Below are positions 1,458-26,773 of a DNA stretch of 64,000 nt, one piece after another. Position 1 is the first letter of the stretch. Each line of letters starts with the position of its first letter. The stretch covers positions 1,011,226 to 1,075,225 of the forward strand of contig NZ_BAAADV010000001.1 in the NCBI RefSeq assembly GCF_039522665.1, in the 5' to 3' direction. The stretch comes from Natronoarchaeum mannanilyticum. Lineage in GTDB: Archaea > Halobacteriota > Halobacteria > Halobacteriales > Natronoarchaeaceae. Both the position numbers and the translations under genes were made by a program. The notes below the pieces were generated by a model. That model ran no database searches. It saw only the letters and a list, made by a program, of their open reading frames with translations, and had not been told where the DNA came from.

Positions 1458-2879
1458 ATGAAAGAGTATCAGACAATCACCGAGATCAGCGGTCCGCTGG
1501 TGTTCGCCGAGGTCGACGAGCCCGTCGGCTACGACGAGGTCGTCGAGATCGAGACCCCGAACGGCGACACCCGGCGCGGCCAGGTACTGGAATCGAGCGA
1601 AGGCGTCGTCGCGATCCAGGTGTTCGAGGGGACCGGCGGCATCGACCGCAACTCCTCGGTCCGCTTCCTGGGCGAGACGATGAAGATGCCGGTCACCGAG
1701 GACCTGCTCGGGCGCGTGCTCGACGGGTCGGGCAATCCGATCGACGGCGGGCCCGAGATCGTCCCCGACGACCGGATCGACATCGTCGGCAAGGCGATCA
1801 ACCCCTACGCCCGCGAGTACCCCGAGGAGTTCATCCAGACCGGCGTGTCCGCCATCGACGGCATGAACACGCTGGTGCGGGGCCAGAAGCTGCCGATCTT
1901 CTCCGGATCGGGGCTGCCCCACAACGAGCTCGCGCTGCAGATCGCCCGCCAGTCGACCGTCCCGGAGGAAGAGGAGTCCGGCGACGACGACGAGGGCTCG
2001 GAGTTCGCGGTGATCTTCGGCGCGATGGGGATCACCCAGGAGGAGGCCAACGAGTTCATGCAGGACTTCGAGCGCACCGGCGCGCTCGAGCGTTCGGTCG
2101 TGTTCATGAACCTCGCGGACGATCCCGCAGTCGAGCGGACGGTCACGCCGCGGATGGCGCTCACTACTGCGGAGTACCTCGCCTTCGAGAAGGACTACCA
2201 CGTGCTGGTCATCCTGACGGACATGACCAACTACTGCGAGGCGCTGCGCGAGATCGGCGCCGCGCGCGAAGAGGTCCCGGGCCGCCGTGGCTACCCCGGG
2301 TACATGTACACGGACCTGGCCCAGCTCTACGAGCGGGCCGGCCGCATCGAGGGCCGCGAGGGCTCTGTCACCCAGATCCCGATCCTCACGATGCCCGGCG
2401 ACGACGACACCCACCCGATCCCGGACCTGACGGGATACATCACCGAGGGCCAGATCTACATCGATCGGGACCTCAACAGCCAGGGCGTCGAGCCGCCGGT
2501 CAACGTGCTGCCGAGCCTGTCGCGCCTGATGGACGACGGCATCGGCGAGGGCCTCACCCGCGAGGACCACGCCGACGTCTCCGACCAGATGTACGCCGCG
2601 TACGCGGAAGGTGAGGACCTTCGGGACCTCGTGAACATCGTCGGTCGCGAAGCGCTGTCCGAGCGCGACAACAAGTTCCTCGACTTCGCGGACCGCTTCG
2701 AGGAGGAGTTCGTCCAGCAGGGCTACGACACCGACCGCTCGATCGACGAGACGATCGAGCTCGGCTGGGACCTGCTCTCGATGCTCCCCAAGGAGGCGCT
2801 CAACCGCATCGACGAGGACCTCATCGCGGAGCACTACCGCGAGGAGGAAGGCGAGACGGTCGAAGCGACCGCCGACTGA
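1458..2879 (+). CDS. atpB: A-type ATP synthase regulatory subunit B
   Basis: Non-catalytic B subunit that alternates with A in the A3B3 head of the A1Ao ATP synthase. The 473-residue protein has the usual length. The P-loop position reads [10 protein letters not shown] instead of a Walker A motif, which is the family hallmark of B subunits, and the conserved segments [28 protein letters not shown] and [12 protein letters not shown] are all present. An acidic insert (residues ~170-180, [13 protein letters not shown]) is typical of salt-in haloarchaea. The ATG follows the atpA stop by 2 bases, so translation is probably coupled. The next gene downstream is on the other strand, so subunit D is not part of this stretch. 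Confidence 0.97.
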
Positions 2880-17687: not shown

Positions 17688-18839
17688 TCATCGGAGCAAA
17701 GCGAGCAACTCCCGCGGGTTGCGCCGGCTGACCAGCAGCGCGCCCGCGACGAAGGACAGCCCGACCACGCCGGTCGCCGGCGACCGGAGCTGCTGTTCGA
17801 CCGCCTCGACGCCGGAGCCGCCCGGCGAGGACACGTCGAGTTCGCCCGCCGTCGCGCCGCTGACCGCAATCTCGTACGTCCCGGGCTGCTCGAACGTTCG
17901 CGTGAACGTGACCGTCGTCGTCTCGCCTGGGCCGAGGCGAACGGGTCGGGTTTCGAGAACGGTGCCGCCGACGGCCAACTCGGCGGTGAACTCGCCGGTC
18001 GACCCGCCGGCGTTTTCGATCGTCGCGGTCACGTCGACGTTCTCGCCGGGCGCGATCGACGCCGATGAGAGTGCGGCGTCTCGCACCGCGTACGACGCGG
18101 CGTCCGGCGCGGGCGGTTCCCTGACGGTGACCGTTCCGCCGGGGGTGTGGTCGACGGCGACCTCGTACGCGCCCGACCGCTGGAACGTCCGCTCGAACGT
18201 CACGGTTCGGCGCTCGCCTGCCGGGACGTACACCGCGCGCTGGGAGACCTCGACGCCGTCGACGAGGAGATCGGCCGAGTGAGTGCCGCCCTCAGTCCCC
18301 CGGTTCGCGACCGTCGCGGTGATCCTGGCCGACTCGCCGACCGCGATCGAGCCGTTCGCGTCGAGTCCCTCGATTTCGACGTCTGTGACCGCGAAGTCCG
18401 GCCCGCCGTCGCCCTCGGCGCGGATCGTGAGATCGCCCGGCTTGACGTCGGCGTCCCGCGTATCGGTCCGGACGCCGAGCGACGCGGTCTCGCCCGCGTC
18501 GAGGTCGAAGGCGGCGCCGCGACTCTCGACGGTGTTGCTCGGATCGCCGCGGTAGATCGTCGTCCCCGCCAGATCGTGCTCGACCCATACGCGCGCGTCC
18601 TCGTCGTCGGTGTTCGTGATCGTGAACACGTCGTCGGCGGTCGTCGTAGCCCGGTCGTTGAGTCGGTCCATCTCGACGGCGAGCTGTCCGTCGGCGTCGA
18701 TATCGGCGTATCCGCCGTTCGAGTCGCCAGGGGAAAGCGAGAGGTCGCCCGCGCGGTCCTCGTCGACGGTGGCCGCCATGGTGGGGACTGCCAGCAAAAG
18801 GGAAACTGCTACGAGGAGTAGTGCGACCTTGGTTCTCAT
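17688..18839 (-). CDS. Secreted protein: DUF1102-like head, two CARDB repeats, C-terminal anchor
   Basis: A 383-residue surface protein. A Sec-type signal (MRTKVALLLVAVSLLLAVPT, cut near Ala25) leads into a DUF1102-like beta domain (~26-130) with the pattern RATTTADDVFTITNTDDEDA shared with the next gene. Two repeats follow (~135-240 and ~255-345) of the CARDB/immunoglobulin type: each has a GES/GENVDVTATIEN-like opening, a SADLLVDGV or TAELAVGGT strand and an RRTVTFERTF / TTTVTFTRTF strand. A final hydrophobic helix (GVVGLSFVAGALLVS) with Arg residues would anchor the C terminus. It lies upstream of the signal peptidase gene on the same strand. The first ATG five codons upstream is less suitable. 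Confidence 0.85.
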   Translation of the reverse strand: MRTKVALLLVAVSLLLAVPTMAATVDEDRAGDLSLSPGDSNGGYADIDADGQLAVEMDRLNDRATTTADDVFTITNTDDEDARVWVEHDLAGTTIYRGDPSNTVESRGAAFDLDAGETASLGVRTDTRDADVKPGDLTIRAEGDGGPDFAVTDVEIEGLDANGSIAVGESARITATVANRGTEGGTHSADLLVDGVEVSQRAVYVPAGERRTVTFERTFQRSGAYEVAVDHTPGGTVTVREPPAPDAASYAVRDAALSSASIAPGENVDVTATIENAGGSTGEFTAELAVGGTVLETRPVRLGPGETTTVTFTRTFEQPGTYEIAVSGATAGELDVSSPGGSGVEAVEQQLRSPATGVVGLSFVAGALLVSRRNPRELLALLR

Positions 18840-18938
18840 TCCGTTTGTCACCGTGCTGCACTAGCGAGTCTCCTTGCTAGAGCATCCCAATGATGAGTTC
18901 ACCGTCTCGATCACGCGGTGGCGACATTATAGGTATCT

Positions 18939-19460
18939 TCAGGCACCGGAGTGGCTACTGGTATCTGCGACGAATGTAATCGAGCCAGGGATGTCGTCAG
19001 CGATGTTATCGCCGGTCAGGTCAAACACCAGATCGAGGTCAGCGCTTCCATTGGAAGCATTGAGGTCTACCGAATTACTGCTACCCACGATCGAAGTACC
19101 GTCGACTTGAATATCTATCTCATCAACGCCAGACACCTGACTACTCTCATCGTCTACGTAGAATCCGACAGCGTTATCTCCCGTGTTTGTAACCGTGATT
19201 GCGTCTTTTGCAGTTGTGGTCGCATCCTTGTTCAGGTTGCTTGCCGAAATTTTGAGAAGATCACTATCATTACCACCGTCCAGATTGACGAGAGTGCTGC
19301 TGCCACTGAACTGTAGCAGGGCCCCACTGTCCCCGGTAGTGCTTATATCAACAGTTCGTTCCGCTTCCACTTGCGAGAACGCCCCCGAGCCGAACACGGC
19401 TCCGCCGCCAGCAGTCAGTGCGCCGATCCCAGCCAGTACGTTGCGTCGATTCATTCTCAT
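18939..19460 (-). CDS. DUF1102 secreted protein with twin-arginine-like signal
   Basis: A 173-residue exported protein. NRRNVLAGIGALTAGGGAVF is a twin-arginine signal; the mature part begins near AFSQVEAERTVDI, the characteristic start of haloarchaeal DUF1102 proteins, and continues as a beta-rich domain with ATTTAKDAITVTNTGDNAV. Codons are clearly more AT-rich than in the flanking transport genes, which hints at transfer or a different age. It lies first on the minus strand ahead of the CARDB protein and signal peptidase, in a likely functional set. Bacterial TasA and camelysin, also cut by SipW, have a similar organisation; relation to them is an inference. Confidence 0.82.
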   Translation of the reverse strand: MRMNRRNVLAGIGALTAGGGAVFGSGAFSQVEAERTVDISTTGDSGALLQFSGSSTLVNLDGGNDSDLLKISASNLNKDATTTAKDAITVTNTGDNAVGFYVDDESSQVSGVDEIDIQVDGTSIVGSSNSVDLNASNGSADLDLVFDLTGDNIADDIPGSITFVADTSSHSGA

Positions 19461-19803
19461 GGTAATCGTCTCTTACTGTACGCGAGTAGTCCACAGGGTG
19501 TGGCTACCGCGCCTTGTACCACCCGTGGAACCCCACCCACTTTGTATTGAGGAGCTTGGAGCCATGAAAGGCGGTCTTGAGCCCTGGAAAGGTGAGCTTG
19601 AAGGACGTCTCAGCCAGGCGAAAACCGCGAAGCCCGTGAAAAGAAGCAACATCACCCTCTATTAGCGATGGCCGCCTGCCTATCGGGCCCGGTTTGATAC
19701 ATGACTGAGGGTAGTCGCGTTCGGTCGCGCAAACCCCTGGTGTAGTTATCAGAAAATCCGAAAGTGTTTTGCAGGTGCGACATTAGTAATAGAACAGTTG
19801 AAG
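19461..19803. other. Gene-free divergent region of the surface-protein cluster
   Basis: 343 bases between the DUF1102 gene (minus) and the winged-helix gene (plus). It must hold both promoters. An open frame of 33 codons from the ATG at 19564 is too short and unlike anything I know. No tRNA, hairpin terminator or repeat is evident. Confidence 0.5.
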
Positions 19804-20340
19804 ATGGCAACCAGTAGCGATGAGTCGCCGGGTCGGGGCGAGATCTTCGACCTGTTGAGCAACCATCGTCGTCGGTACGCCATCCACTTTTGCAAGCAAC
19901 GCGACGAGACCGTGACGCTTTCGGACGTCGCCGAGCAGGTCGCCGCCTGGGAGCAGGACAAGCCCGTCGAGGAGCTGACCTCCGCCGAGCGCAAGCGCGT
20001 GTACACGTCGCTCCAGCAGACCCACCTGCCGACACTTTCGGAAAGCGGGATGATCGAGTTCGACGGGTCCGAGGTGATGCTGACCGAGGAAGCCGAGCAG
20101 ATGGAGGTGTACATGGACGTCGTGCCCGGGGACTCGATCCCGTGGGGCGAGTACTATCTGGGGCTGTCGGCGGTCGGCGCGCTCGTGCTCGCGGGCGTGT
20201 GGTTCGATATCCTTCCGACCGATCCCGTGCCGGCGGTAGGCTGGGCTGCGATGGTGGTGGCTACATTTGGTGGATCGGCAGCCTACCACGTCTACCAGAG
20301 CCGGCAGAACCGGCTGGGGGAAGTCGAGCGACCGCCATGA
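19804..20340 (+). CDS. Membrane-anchored winged-helix protein (DUF7344-like)
   Basis: A 178-residue protein with an N-terminal winged helix (FDLLSNHRRRYAIHFCK, then TLSDVAEQVAAWEQDKPVEE and RKRVYTSLQQTHLPTL) of the kind called DUF7344 in haloarchaea, and two C-terminal hydrophobic helices (YLGLSAVGALVLAGVWF and VGWAAMVVATFGGSAAYHVY). It would bind DNA from the membrane. Its stop overlaps the start of the following secreted protein in ATGA, so the two are co-translated, and it is divergent from the DUF1102 gene: it is a likely local regulator of the surface cluster. ATG at 19804 is chosen over a TTG two codons upstream. Confidence 0.82.
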   Translation: MATSSDESPGRGEIFDLLSNHRRRYAIHFCKQRDETVTLSDVAEQVAAWEQDKPVEELTSAERKRVYTSLQQTHLPTLSESGMIEFDGSEVMLTEEAEQMEVYMDVVPGDSIPWGEYYLGLSAVGALVLAGVWFDILPTDPVPAVGWAAMVVATFGGSAAYHVYQSRQNRLGEVERPP

Positions 20341-21626
20341 GGTCGCGTAGCTTCGCGGCGATCGGTATGCTGTTGCTCCTCTGTGGCGGCGTCGTTATGG
20401 CCGGATCTACATTTGGTTTTACTACCGTCGCCGCAGATCGGGTGACAGCAGCGTCCGTCGCAGAGGACCAGAATGCGTATCTCGGCGTCGAAAGCGTTGG
20501 ATCTGCTGGTCAACTCCGAAGTGACAGCGAACCCGTTCGGGTCGGCACACTCACGAATAACCTTGGTGCGTCGATGACTATTGATGACGTAGTCGTCGAT
20601 AACATCAATGGAAGCACCAACGCTGACGTCCTCACCGTTTCAGCCCCAAGGCGGGGAACGTCCATTGCCCAGGGAGGTAGTACTGATGTACACGTTGAGT
20701 GTGCCCAGAAACAACAACTTGGCCAACGAGAGGTACAGTTCCGTGTAACCGAGGCTAGTAGCCAGACGGTTAGCATCGCCGAGGTTACGTTTACGGCGAC
20801 AATAGATATCCAGTGTCAAAAGGGCAGAAATAAGCCAGGAAATGGATTCGCCAGTGTATCTGTCGAGGATGTTGATTCCTACACATCACCCGGACAGGAA
20901 CGACAGACCATACGGTTCACGCCATCTTCGAAGCTCCAACCGAACAGCGAAGTCATAATAGATGTCAGTGAACCTCACCCAAGTGCGGTCGACTATGAAG
21001 CACCACCGAGCAACTGGCCGGATGTCTATGTTGAACAAGGCCAAGGCAGCGTCACCTACGACAGCGGTACGGAGTCGTTCATCTATCAAGCTGGGTCCAA
21101 CGATAGAGGCGGTAACGAGATCATGCTCTCAATCGGCGAATACGGCACTAGCCAAGCCAGTTCTAGCCATCAAGTTTCGATCACACGCCAAGACAGTGGT
21201 GAGCAGGCGCTTGCGGTATTCGACGTCGTTGAATCCGGAACCAGACCGATTGAATCGGTGACGGTGAGTGATGTAGGAGCCAACGTCCAACCAGGAGATG
21301 AACGTCAGATGATCGGATTCGATCTGGGGACAACTCCGAGCGGGAGCGATCCGATTGAGATCGATCTGAGCGAAGCCCAAGGGAACGGTGTTGATTACAT
21401 GGCAGGAGACTGGCCGGATACGCGCGTTGAGCAGGGCGGGGGGTCAGTGCACTACGATGAAAACAGTCAGTCGCTCATTTATTGGCCAAACAACGACGGC
21501 GCGAGTGACCGAATCGAAATTAGCGTCGGCGACTACGGTACGGAGTCGTCCGGTGGCCCCTACGAGGTCGCCATCTATCGCGCCGACGCCGATTATGAGG
21601 CCAGCGATACGTTCAGTATCGAGTGA
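20337..21626 (+). CDS. Secreted protein with DUF1102-like head and two ~125-residue repeats
   Basis: A 429-residue exported protein of unknown function. A signal peptide (AAIGMLLLLCGGVVMAGSTF) precedes a DUF1102-like domain (~35-165, DRVTAASVAEDQNAYLGVES, with Cys near 120 and 160 that could pair). Two tandem repeats follow (~170-302 and ~303-429); shared landmarks are SPGQERQTIRF / QPGDERQMIGF, NWPDVYVEQGQGSVTYD / DWPDTRVEQGGGSVHYD and LSIGEYGT / ISVGDYGT. There is no C-terminal anchor. The gene is much more AT-rich than its neighbours. It is translationally coupled to the membrane winged-helix gene by ATGA. A fibre or adhesin role is inferred from the cluster only. Confidence 0.8.
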   Translation: MRSRSFAAIGMLLLLCGGVVMAGSTFGFTTVAADRVTAASVAEDQNAYLGVESVGSAGQLRSDSEPVRVGTLTNNLGASMTIDDVVVDNINGSTNADVLTVSAPRRGTSIAQGGSTDVHVECAQKQQLGQREVQFRVTEASSQTVSIAEVTFTATIDIQCQKGRNKPGNGFASVSVEDVDSYTSPGQERQTIRFTPSSKLQPNSEVIIDVSEPHPSAVDYEAPPSNWPDVYVEQGQGSVTYDSGTESFIYQAGSNDRGGNEIMLSIGEYGTSQASSSHQVSITRQDSGEQALAVFDVVESGTRPIESVTVSDVGANVQPGDERQMIGFDLGTTPSGSDPIEIDLSEAQGNGVDYMAGDWPDTRVEQGGGSVHYDENSQSLIYWPNNDGASDRIEISVGDYGTESSGGPYEVAIYRADADYEASDTFSIE

Positions 21627-21828
21627 CAGCAGCCGAAGTAGCGTCATCATCTCGGGGAAGGTCCTCAGTTCGTACTGATCGAGTCAGAATTGTTTGTGAC
21701 CGGCCTGTCCTCCTAGCCGGCATGTGGCGTAGTTGTTGAAGAGCACGACGTCGAATTTTTCAGCGTAAGCGAGACCGCATCCACTCGGAATCGCAACAAC
21801 CAATCCAGTCGATTACCTGACGACGAGC

Positions 21829-22791
21829 GTGGAGTCGACGCTGAACCTCCTGCTCGCGGACATCCTCCCCCGGGTCGCCAGCATAGCCCTTTTTATCGCG
21901 GTCGGCGTTGCCCTCGCCAATCTTGCCGTCGAGTTCGGTGCCGTCGAGTACATAGCAGTGCTCTCGAAGCCGCTGACCGGCCCGGCGAACCTGCCCGACG
22001 AGGTCGGCACCGCGATCCTCGCGACCGCGACGTCGCCGACCGCCGGCTACGGCATGCTCGCGGAGTACCGCGAGTCCGGGTTGATCGACGACCTCGCGAC
22101 GCTGGTCGCGATCACCGTCAACACGTTCTTCGGGTTCGTCCAGCACATCTTCACGTTCTACGCGCCGGTGTTGATCCCGATTCTGGGCCTGGAAGTCGGC
22201 GTCATGTACGTCGGCGCGCGAGCGGGCATCTCGCTGGCGATCACCGTCGTCGGGATCCTCGCGGGAGCGGCACTGCTCTCCGAAGAGAACGTCGACCCGA
22301 CGGCCCGACCGGCGGCCGACAGCGGTGAAGAAGAAGCCGAACGGAGCCGCCGAGAGCGGGTCGTCAGCGCCGCGGAGAGCACCTGGTCGAAGCTGCGGAC
22401 GATCGTCCCGCGGCTGGCGATCGTCTACGCGCTCGTCGCCGTGCTGACGGCGCGGGACGCCTTCGACGCGCTGTTCGCGGGCGTCGAGCCGCTGACCGCG
22501 CTGGTGGGGCTACCACCCGAGAGCGCCGGCGTCGTCGGCGTCTTCGCGATCGACACGACCAGCGGCGCGGCCGCGATCGCGCCCCAGCTCGGCGCGCCGT
22601 TCACGCCCCAGGAAGCCGTCACGACGATGCTGATCGGCGGCGTCGTCTCCTTCGCCTTTTCGACGTTCAAGCGTTCGATCCCCTTCCAGTACGGCATCTG
22701 GGGGCCGGCGTTCGGGACGAAGGTGATCCTGGTCAACACGGCGCTGAAGGTCGGCTTCATCGCGCTGACTGTCGTGCTGCTGCTGATCTAA
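21829..22791 (+). CDS. Nucleoside-recognition (gate) domain membrane protein
   Basis: A 320-residue multi-span membrane protein with two copies of the gate/nucleoside-recognition fold: the segments DEVGTAILATATSPTAGYGM and PPESAGVVGVFAIDTTSGAA are the paired motifs, each followed by a glycine-rich membrane helix. Around eight hydrophobic helices are present, with a charged loop near residues 160-195 (EENVDPTARPAADSGEEEAE). Related proteins occur in spore maturation proteins SpmA/B and in nucleoside transporters; the substrate here is unknown. The start is GTG (MESTLNLLLADILP). It is transcribed alone, back-to-end with the UPF0201 gene. Confidence 0.85.
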   Translation: MESTLNLLLADILPRVASIALFIAVGVALANLAVEFGAVEYIAVLSKPLTGPANLPDEVGTAILATATSPTAGYGMLAEYRESGLIDDLATLVAITVNTFFGFVQHIFTFYAPVLIPILGLEVGVMYVGARAGISLAITVVGILAGAALLSEENVDPTARPAADSGEEEAERSRRERVVSAAESTWSKLRTIVPRLAIVYALVAVLTARDAFDALFAGVEPLTALVGLPPESAGVVGVFAIDTTSGAAAIAPQLGAPFTPQEAVTTMLIGGVVSFAFSTFKRSIPFQYGIWGPAFGTKVILVNTALKVGFIALTVVLLLI

Positions 22792-24575: not shown

Positions 24576-24953
24576 ATGACAGAACGGTCCCTGCCGGTCC
24601 GTGCGCTCTGGTTCGTCCTCGTGGGCTGGTGGCTCACGCCGATCGTGGTCAACCTCGCGTGGGCGCTGAACGTCACGATTCTCCTGCTCCCCTTCGGCAT
24701 CAAGCTGATCAACCTCGTCCCGACGGTGCTGACGCTGAAAGAGCCCCGATCGCTGTCGGACCCGGACAGCGCACGCGGGCAGAATTCGCTTCTCGTGCGG
24801 GGCGTGTACTTCGTGCTCGTGGGGTGGTGGGCCAGCCTGCTGTGGGCGAACGCCGCCGCCCTGCTCGCGGTGACGGTGATCGGCTTGCCCGTCGCGTACT
24901 GGATGTTCAACCGCCTGCCGTACGTGACGTCGCTGTACCGCTTCCACGGCTGA
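24576..24953 (+). CDS. YccF-domain inner membrane protein
   Basis: A 125-residue membrane protein made of two copies of the YccF (DUF307) domain: each has the run VLVGWW followed by a hydrophobic span with an Asn (VVNLAWALNVTILLLP and LLWANAAALLAVTVIGLP) and an LP.xYWxFN-type end. The function of the family is not established. The start at ATG gives MTERSLPVRALWFVLV; a TATA-like GTATACGTA about 27 bases upstream fits a leaderless transcript. The gene is divergent from the four-span membrane protein and is the last gene of normal GC before the AT-rich island. Confidence 0.87.
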   Translation: MTERSLPVRALWFVLVGWWLTPIVVNLAWALNVTILLLPFGIKLINLVPTVLTLKEPRSLSDPDSARGQNSLLVRGVYFVLVGWWASLLWANAAALLAVTVIGLPVAYWMFNRLPYVTSLYRFHG

Positions 24954-24997
24954 AGCCCCTTCCCAAGCATTATAGCCGGCGATATATTTTCACAAGT

Positions 24998-25417
24998 ATG
25001 GACCCGAATGCAAAAGGAGACAAAGTGGAGGCGATGGTTCTGTCTGACTTGGTGAACAGAGAGTTTGATGTACTAATACCATTCAGCGAGAGTAATCGGT
25101 ACGACTTGGTCATTCAGGGAGAGGCCGGATTCCATAAGCTCCAATGTAAGTCTGGACGTTATAAGCAGGATAGGATAATATTCAGTACTAAGAGTTCTAG
25201 ACCTAATACAACAGGGAGTACTAGAGAAGACTACAGAGGAGACATCGATTATTTTGCCGTTTACTCGTTCGGTACAGAAGAAACATATCTGGTCCCAATC
25301 TCCAAAGCGGCTAATGGGGAGATGACGTTGCGAACTCAACCGCCGGACAATGGGCAGTCAAAGGGTATAAATTGGGCCGAAGACTATCTGATAGATGCAC
25401 AGTTAAGAGACTTGTAG
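24998..25417 (+). CDS. PD-(D/E)XK endonuclease of the group I intron-associated (PDDEXK_5) type
   Basis: A 139-residue single-domain nuclease resembling the PF11645 family, whose best-known member is the homing endonuclease I-Ssp6803I. The active-site residues can be assigned: Glu11 (KGDKVEAMVL), Asp36 (RYDLVI) and Gln49-x-Lys51 (LQCKSGRY), followed by the family motifs DIDYFAVY and YLVPI and a final RTQPPDN segment. No group I intron surrounds it. The gene is AT-rich against a GC-rich background and its TAG stop shares its last G with the first base of the tRNA-Arg gene. It could act as a free-standing homing enzyme or a junction-type nuclease; the former is favoured by the family. Confidence 0.85.
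   Translation: MDPNAKGDKVEAMVLSDLVNREFDVLIPFSESNRYDLVIQGEAGFHKLQCKSGRYKQDRIIFSTKSSRPNTTGSTREDYRGDIDYFAVYSFGTEETYLVPISKAANGEMTLRTQPPDNGQSKGINWAEDYLIDAQLRDL
25365..25372 (+). promoter_or_regulatory. Probable TATA element of tRNA-Arg, inside the endonuclease gene
   Basis: GTATAAAT starts 52 bases before the first tRNA base and lies within the coding sequence of the endonuclease. It would start a tRNA precursor with a leader of roughly 20 bases, to be removed by RNase P. The tRNA can therefore be made independently of the endonuclease mRNA. Confidence 0.5.
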
Positions 25418-25520
25418 GGCACGTAGCTCAGTCCGGATAGAGCGTCGGACTTCTATCTCTAATACGGCAGTATTAGAGGAAGACATCCGACGGTCGTGGG
25501 TTCAAATCCCATCGTGCCCG
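25417..25520 (+). tRNA. tRNA-Arg (anticodon UCU) with a 29-nt intron
   Basis: A complete cloverleaf: acceptor stem GGGCACG/CGTGCCC, D stem GCTC/GAGC, anticodon stem TCGGA/TCCGA, five-base variable region, T stem GTGGG/CCCAT with loop TTCAAAT, discriminator G, no encoded CCA. After removal of the intron the anticodon loop is CTTCTAA, anticodon UCU, reading AGA/AGG Arg codons. Intron position is canonical, between bases 37 and 38. The gene's first base is also the last base of the upstream endonuclease stop codon. Introns are usual in haloarchaeal tRNA-Trp and elongator tRNA-Met; one in tRNA-Arg(UCU) is uncommon to my knowledge. Confidence 0.95.
25456..25484 (+). other. Archaeal tRNA intron with bulge-helix-bulge splice sites
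   Basis: The fold is a textbook bulge-helix-bulge: a 4-bp central helix CTTC (25450-25453)/GAAG (25479-25482), a 3-base bulge TAT (25454-25456) and a 3-base bulge ACA (25483-25485). Cutting after the second base of each bulge releases exactly 29 nt. The intron's own stem is CTCTAATA/TATTAGAG with loop CGGCAG. The splicing endonuclease EndA would process it. Confidence 0.93.
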
Positions 25521-25745
25521 TTCTGAGATCTCCGGTTCCTCATTTTCACCAATTATCCATTAAGATCCATTAATTCCACCAACTAGAGTATAGAAATCTA
25601 TTTTTCTATGTTACCACATATAAGATAGGTGGTGATATATCTGCTTCACAGTTGTCGAACTCGGCGTAGATCTCTGTACCCGAAAGCGAATTGACGAGGA
25701 CGGATTGGCGATAGGGTTATTGTTCATCAGCAGATAACCGAAGTT

Positions 25746-26654
25746 ATGGCATTTAGACAATTCGAGTATCTTGATGATTTAGCTGTTCGCAGCCTATTAG
25801 CATCAGAGAATATTGCGATCCCGGAGGCAATAACAGAGGTTTCTGAGTCTACTACAGAAGGAGAAGGTGGTGCAGAGTTATCTGCGGGATTTGAGATACC
25901 CTATGTAGGAAAAGCAGAAGGGGGAGCTAACCTTGCAGGGTCAAAAATGGGAAGGCAGATGTTTGAAACATCTAAACGCATTAATGACCAGTATATTTTT
26001 AATGTTCTTCATGAAGAGGTAGAGGATGAGATTGTTGATATCACTGAGGGAGATACCGTTAGTTGCTCAGAAGGAGATCTAGTGAAAATCAGTGGGGCCA
26101 TAAATACAGATGCTATTTATAGAATTTTGACGATATTTAATGCCTACTCAGAAGTCATGGATATAGAAAACCAAGATCAGATACAGGAAGCTCACAAAAT
26201 ATTATATTCGGATGCGATCGGATTATCATTAGAAGTAGAAGATTCACGATTTGCCTACGGAATGAGAATAGACCCGGACAATCTCTGGACAGAAAGGAGA
26301 CAAGCATTTCTAGAAGCTAAAGAATATGTTGTTTTCGGTCGAGTATCAAAACAAATTGGAGGAGAAGATAGATGGGACTATCTCAATGTTGCAGAGCTAA
26401 TTGATTCAATATTAGTGGATGAAACAATGGATTCCTTGAGGAATTGGGCTTCAGGAATGATTAATGCGATAGATTCTGCGGAAGGAGATATGGAAGTTCC
26501 TGATGTGTCTTCTGCTGATATCGAAGCTTTCGCTGATTTAGGTGATATCGGTGAGGTAACTACTGATGCTCGTTTCAGTTTGGATGTTGAGGATAGAGAG
26601 ATAGCTCTAGAAGGACCAGGATTCGTCATCCATCCAATTGCAATATATTGGTGA
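25746..26654 (+). CDS. AT-rich gene of unknown function, resembling DUF6414
   Basis: A 302-residue soluble protein with codon use very unlike the window (many ATA, AGA, AAT). The opening FRQFEYLDDLAVRSLLASEN, then a glycine-rich AELSAGFEIPYVGKAEGG stretch and RINDQYIFNVLHEEV, is reminiscent of the DUF6414 family found in bacteria and archaea; I hold this loosely. No catalytic motif is visible and there are no membrane spans. A TATA-like TTATTG about 28 bases before the ATG fits a leaderless gene. It lies in the AT-rich island downstream of tRNA-Arg, so it was probably acquired. A defence or mobile-element role is possible but not shown. Confidence 0.75.
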   Translation: MAFRQFEYLDDLAVRSLLASENIAIPEAITEVSESTTEGEGGAELSAGFEIPYVGKAEGGANLAGSKMGRQMFETSKRINDQYIFNVLHEEVEDEIVDITEGDTVSCSEGDLVKISGAINTDAIYRILTIFNAYSEVMDIENQDQIQEAHKILYSDAIGLSLEVEDSRFAYGMRIDPDNLWTERRQAFLEAKEYVVFGRVSKQIGGEDRWDYLNVAELIDSILVDETMDSLRNWASGMINAIDSAEGDMEVPDVSSADIEAFADLGDIGEVTTDARFSLDVEDREIALEGPGFVIHPIAIYW

Positions 26655-26773
26655 AATCACTGATCGCGACCAGTCCGTATTGTTCCGCAATAATGGGCTA
26701 TATACCAGAGAAAACACCTACTTTACTATATCATAGATAGAATTATTTGATGCGTGTATTATTCGTTATAGAT

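Follow-up and report, generated by a model that had tools for sequence, protein, structure and literature searches.

A PD-(D/E)XK nuclease gene of the I-Ssp6803I type overlapping the start of an intron-bearing tRNA-Arg(UCU) gene in Natronoarchaeum mannanilyticum, and its possible part in the spread of archaeal tRNA introns

Organization of the tRNA-Arg(UCU) locus

The locus lies within a 64,000-nucleotide stretch of the N. mannanilyticum genome (the window) and contains a YccF-domain gene, a free-standing nuclease gene and a tRNA-Arg(UCU) gene with a bulge-helix-bulge (BHB) intron, all on the same strand (Table 1). The original prediction had the nuclease gene directly adjoining the tRNA gene, which is an understatement because the two share a base, the last of the stop codon and the first of the tRNA. 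The tRNA is invisible to ARAGORN unless introns are allowed, in which case it is reported as tRNA-Arg(TCT) with a 29-nt intron. The intron recognized at the outset has the hallmarks of a BHB tRNA intron, with insertion at 37/38, a 4-bp central helix (CTTC/GAAG) and flanking bulges, and the pre-tRNA folds much better than shuffled sequences (z -5.5). It is also AT-richer than the introns of relatives. As predicted, there is no group I intron; tRNA alone scores above the gathering threshold in 20 related loci, and no group I intron was found in the window stretch.

Table 1. Features of the window tRNA-Arg(UCU) locus, and of the tRNA-Lys(UUU) locus of genome G018 (L162)
Feature	Position	Strand	Basis or remark
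YccF-domain gene	24576-24953	+	PF03733; conserved neighbour upstream of tRNA-Arg(UCU)
Putative promoter-like AT-rich leader before the nuclease gene	24962-24990	+	Resembles the pre-tRNA leader of relatives, by eye against 12 upstream regions
PD-(D/E)XK nuclease gene, free-standing, I-Ssp6803I type, 139 aa	24998-25417	+	PF11645 (Pfam), 2OST, AlphaFold2
GGGTATAAATTGGGC, within the nuclease ORF, coding for GINW	25363-25377	+	TATA-like; candidate internal tRNA promoter
TAG stop codon of the nuclease gene	25415-25417	+	Its G is tRNA base 1; sequence and tRNA call
tRNA-Arg(UCU) gene with intron	25417-25520	+	RF00005, 60.3 bits; ARAGORN with introns allowed
tRNA 5' exon	25417-25455	+	Intron position
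CTTC, 5' strand of the central BHB helix	25450-25453	+	Pairs with GAAG at 25479-25482
BHB intron, 29 nt, tRNA positions 37/38	25456-25484	+	A37 and A38 directly joined in intronless relatives; fold
tRNA 3' exon	25485-25520	+	Intron position
tRNA-Lys(UUU) gene (L162; G018:C14)	1933-2459		Predicted 451-nt BHB intron at 1973-2423
PF11645 nuclease ORF, complete, 141 aa (L162)	1989-2414		Inside the predicted tRNA-Lys intron

The nuclease gene has a GC content of 45%, compared with about 68% for most of the window. An AT-rich stretch also follows the tRNA (25521-26700); it holds a single 302-aa ORF (25746-26654; DUF6414, PF19952), which is absent from the other tRNA-Arg loci read. A second low-GC stretch lies at 18500-22000 (0.53-0.61, compared with about 0.69). 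The TATA-like sequence within the nuclease ORF is shared with the nuclease ORF of a tRNA-Arg locus in another family (L177), approximately 45-50 bp 5' of the tRNA, and from its sequence it is a possible promoter of tRNA-Arg(UCU).

Relationship to I-Ssp6803I

The window protein matches PF11645 (PDDEXK_5) over residues 1-131 (E 2.4e-34; 118.7 bits, cut-off 26.1), in agreement with the PD-(D/E)XK assignment first made from the open reading frame; there is no NCBIfam model for it. The catalytic residues picked out at that time (Glu11, Asp36 and Gln49-x-Lys51) are all invariant in an alignment of 11 family members, and in an alignment of 24 members Asp36, Gln49 and Lys51 remain invariant, with Glu11 present in at least 90%. 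I-Ssp6803I (PDB 2OST), already proposed as a relative, is the sole match in both a sequence search (3e-4) and a profile search (1.2e-19). It is also the top fold match (Foldseek 2.9e-10) for an AlphaFold2 model with a pLDDT of 92.7, built with 23 relatives from public contigs; single-sequence prediction gave a pLDDT of 33. The structural match has a Z of 16.5 and an rmsd of 2.7 over 136 aligned residues, with the next best match at Z 10.5, and the window protein is a homolog of I-Ssp6803I in both sequence and fold.

A second, divergent PF11645 gene is present in the same genome (L216; G000:C7:386857-387174), with no tRNA gene nearby, and other members of its branch also lack tRNA neighbours. 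A scan of genome contigs with the window protein gave one distant match.

Precise insertion next to the tRNA gene

A genome of the same genus (G008; locus L044) provides the empty site, in which a 43-bp spacer separates the same YccF gene from a tRNA-Arg that has no intron. The YccF-tRNA spacer in the window is 463 bp, and the difference of 420 bp is exactly that of the ORF and its stop codon, which places the nuclease gene between leader and tRNA. The adjacency of nuclease and tRNA is not a matter of chance, given the ORF-exact difference in length from G008. Such presence and absence at a syntenic site is seen a second time in genus g7, where the spacers between tRNA-Asn and a CAU tRNA occur both with and without a nuclease gene.

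The YccF-tRNA-Arg neighbourhood is old. The two genes adjoin at 15 of 101 loci in several families, and a nuclease gene is present at only two of these, the window and L177. The L177 locus (genome G234) has YccF followed by the nuclease and an intron-bearing tRNA-Arg(UCU), and its nuclease, 50% identical to that of the window, has a stop codon that falls within the tRNA. The nuclease stop at another locus, L206, is likewise in or on the tRNA. Because the window nuclease is only about 50% identical to its nearest relative, no recent transfer is seen.

We considered whether the nuclease gene is simply cargo unlinked to the tRNA, carried into a tRNA locus that is a hot spot for insertion. The AT-richness of the window segment on both sides of the tRNA would fit such a passenger, as would the repeated tRNA 3'-end fragments downstream of tRNA genes in relatives. 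It accounts poorly for an insertion of exactly one ORF, for the perfect co-orientation of nuclease and tRNA genes, and for nuclease clades that track tRNA isotype (see below), and we regard it as most improbable. An integrated element with copies of the tRNA 3' end at its boundaries was rejected, since no second copy of that end is present elsewhere in the window with four or fewer mismatches. We note that many tRNA genes of haloarchaea are followed by fragments that repeat the tRNA 3' end (L038, L044, L177, L162, L185, L205 and L225), with or without a nuclease gene; the fragments are perhaps relics of integration.

Association of the PF11645 family with tRNA genes

PF11645 is present in 115 of 243 haloarchaeal genomes of the order. 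There is a tRNA gene within about 1.5-2 kb at 107 of the 115 loci (a count that excludes G018, whose intron-split tRNA is not detected by ARAGORN), and within 300 bp at 86 of them, where a rough calculation gives about 0.7 loci by chance. The linked tRNA is always on the nuclease strand. Five PF11645 genes without a tRNA form one divergent branch. Elsewhere in the phylum there are only matches below the cut-off, and none were found on plasmids.

The linked tRNAs are Asp, Pro, Asn (often together with a CAU tRNA), Lys, Gly(UCC), Leu(UAA) and Arg(UCU), and the nuclease clades follow them, with 11 changes of isotype on the tree compared with 48 when labels are shuffled. Support is good for a clade uniting the Arg, Lys and Asn nucleases (99/92) and for the Arg pair (98/94). 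The ARAGORN calls of Gly(CCC) at L177 and Val at L205 are wrong; by sequence the two are an intron-bearing Arg(UCU) and an intron-bearing Asn(GUU). The family is sporadic in distribution and includes decaying copies with internal stops and truncations. One example is the tRNA-Asp spacer in the family to which the window belongs, which is intact in G002 and G004, a relic in G001 and empty in G003, as expected of the cycle of a homing gene. Supposed relics at L073 and L065 were discarded, the match at L065 proving to be a repeated tRNA 3' end. The tRNA-Pro-linked nucleases are often tandem duplications of about 265 aa (L119, L120, L123, L124, L154, L170, L172, L175, L176 and L180), with three domains in L175 (382 aa), and the later domains are degenerate. 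From these sequence comparisons, we consider the window gene very probably a tRNA-linked homing-type nuclease.

Viral members show a similar association, with a tRNA within 300 bp at 32 of 46 PF11645 loci; a shared strand means less in these genomes as viral operons are often co-oriented anyway. The haloviruses HSTV-4 and HATV-2 encode PF11645 nucleases beside intronless tRNA genes, that of HSTV-4 lying 2 bp after tRNA-Asn. A PF11645-type gene of phage My1 overlaps the 5' end of tRNA-Ile, and in Arthrobacter phage Talia1610 a PF11645-like gene (L307, 1989-2402), annotated as a Holliday junction resolvase, shares about 50 bp with the 5' part of tRNA-Ser(tga).

The two haloviruses raise the question of whether the family serves in conflict, with the nuclease attacking tRNA genes carried by a virus or mobile element, or a viral homolog attacking those of the host, and the host intron marking self. 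A review also cites the idea that integration is prevented by tRNA introns (PMC4090602). However, insertion at a single cognate tRNA, isotype-specific clades and decay are a better fit to a selfish element, and the stretch read shows no defence genes nearby; a role in defence seems to us rather improbable.

Introns and nucleases at cognate tRNA genes

The original prediction was that nuclease and intron would co-occur at tRNA-Arg(UCU) loci. Both loci with a nuclease gene do have the intron, although with only two the association is not significant (Fisher p 0.13), and some 34 of about 100 loci surveyed have the intron without a nuclease, formally one of the outcomes that the original prediction had named as refuting it. 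With the intron this common (about a third) and the nuclease this rare, the tRNA-Arg survey was dropped as a means of deciding the matter. As a homing cycle predicts that introns outlive the nuclease, the Arg introns without one are not decisive against the idea.

The other isotypes of the Lys/Asn/Arg clade favour the idea. An intron in tRNA-Lys(UUU) is rare, being present in about 16 genomes (12 found by pattern, three more by reading, and G018). The six genomes with a free-standing Lys nuclease (G096, G101, G141, G185, G125 and G195) all have this intron, whereas the nuclease is in none of about 199 intronless genomes among the matches listed (Fisher 4e-8 by genome). One example is genus g50, in which both genomes with a nuclease have the intron and three others have neither. 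For tRNA-Asn(GUU), the intron is present in 10 of 15 nuclease genomes and in 27 of 138 other typed genomes (Fisher 3e-4), where introns ending in ACAG, outside the search pattern, were added from the loci read. A second within-genus example is g7, with an Asn intron in six of eight nuclease genomes and in none of six empty ones (p 0.01). Clade members share ancestry and are not independent; a permutation stratified by genus gives p 2e-5 for co-occurrence across the Lys/Asn/Arg clade, a value that takes the genomes of a genus as independent and may be overstated.

There are exceptions within the clade (G028, G044, G070, G129, G216 and G231). Among the Asn-type hosts, G028 and G044 have an apparently intact nuclease gene beside an intronless tRNA. 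In G129 the intron is in the neighbouring CAU tRNA. The G070 gene has an internal stop and those of G216 and G231 have lost Gln49 or Lys51, and these three fit decay in the absence of protection, the numbers being small. The CAU tRNA that neighbours the Asn-type nucleases (L189, 1814-1923; L186; L190) has an intron in G129 and none in g7, and by sequence may be tRNA-Ile2 rather than Met.

Outside this clade there is no such co-occurrence. The large Asp and Pro sister clades, and also the Gly(UCC) nucleases, have intact motifs beside intronless tRNAs (e.g. L107, L130 and L119), so the expectation that no nuclease would be found beside an intronless allele fails for the Asp and Pro clades, as well as for the apparently intact Asn-type genes of G028 and G044. 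The family therefore has another means of sparing its host. One explanation is that the target is the leader/tRNA junction or a flank, which the insertion itself destroys, and that the intron is an independently inherited bystander. This is the main rival to collaborative homing, and is in keeping with the intronless majority formed by the Asp and Pro clades, with an insertion of exactly ORF size at the 5' edge of the tRNA in the window, with the phage and L206 ORFs that end on or in the 5' end of a tRNA, and with Arg introns that are common without a nuclease. We nonetheless think it unlikely, as it does not predict that six of six Lys and 10 of 15 Asn nucleases are at intron-bearing tRNAs, nor a nuclease ORF inside an intron.

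A nuclease ORF within a predicted tRNA-Lys intron

Such an ORF is present in G018, in which a complete PF11645 gene lies within the predicted intron of a tRNA-Lys(UUU) gene (L162; Table 1). The 5' half of the tRNA ends at 1972 and the 3' half starts at 2424, and folding of the complete transcript gives a tRNA that has a BHB at the junction, such that splicing is predicted; no intronless tRNA-Lys was found in the G018 genome. On the tree, the encoded protein branches as sister to the free-standing Lys nucleases (98/87). Archaeal tRNA introns are given as 11-129 nt in a 2014 review (PMC4090602), a range which the L162 intron, at 451 nt, exceeds.

Discussion

We propose collaborative homing of the nuclease with the BHB intron as the best single mechanism for the window locus, and judge its chances to be about even. 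A free-standing homing endonuclease gene of the I-Ssp6803I type would have entered the 5' leader of tRNA-Arg(UCU), with which it is probably co-expressed. The most likely target of the enzyme is the DNA of the anticodon arm in intronless tRNA-Arg(UCU) alleles, a site that the 29-nt intron would split, so protecting the host copy, and repair of the break from the window locus would copy the intron and nuclease gene together. The intron would be removed from the RNA by EndA. The homing idea put forward at the outset thus gains from the co-occurrence in the Lys/Asn/Arg clade and from the ORF within the predicted G018 intron, and loses from the Asp and Pro clades at intronless tRNAs and from the lack of a recent transfer in the comparison of the window nuclease with its nearest relative. 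A more general model, which we offer only tentatively, is that PD-(D/E)XK nucleases, either free-standing or intron-encoded as in G018, spread archaeal tRNA BHB introns by cutting intronless anticodon arms and carrying nuclease and intron together, with short introns lacking an ORF being the remnants after nuclease loss.

Several known systems bear comparison. I-Ssp6803I, from a group I intron in a cyanobacterial tRNA-fMet gene, has the same family and fold as the window protein, and is described as specific for a tRNA anticodon region in the title of a reference in PMC3984707. Unlike I-Ssp6803I, the window gene is outside any intron, and the adjacent intron is a protein-spliced archaeal BHB intron, not a group I intron. 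Mobile BHB introns with LAGLIDADG homing nucleases occur in archaeal rRNA genes (see PMC4496867), whereas here the host gene is a tRNA gene, the nuclease is a PD-(D/E)XK enzyme and it is mostly encoded by a free-standing gene. SegB, a nuclease of the GIY-YIG family, is similar in being a free-standing homing nuclease tied to a tRNA gene region, and differs in its nuclease family, in being phage-borne and in having no intron. Its action on a tRNA gene region in phages T4/T6 is indicated by PMC13096335 and the reference list of PMC10448857.

A further parallel is the collaborative (trans) homing of cyanophages and T7-like phages, which shares with the window a free-standing nuclease gene beside an intron-bearing gene, and for which cleavage of the intron insertion site by the free-standing nuclease has been proposed (PMC10448857; PMC3984707). 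Collaborative homing is already known with self-splicing introns (PMC10448857); the window would be a variant in which the intron is of the BHB type and in a tRNA gene. A search of the open-access literature turned up neither PF11645 nucleases beside archaeal tRNA genes nor a nuclease-coding archaeal tRNA intron.

The PF11645 family is tied to tRNA genes in both viruses and haloarchaea, with one branch linked to intron-bearing tRNAs. The mechanism of transposition of archaeal tRNA introns is still unknown according to a review (PMC4090602), and G018 and the intron-linked branch provide a concrete enzyme and target for the question of how these introns move. The sequence comparisons as a whole suggest that the family exploits tRNA genes and may contribute to the spread of archaeal tRNA introns.
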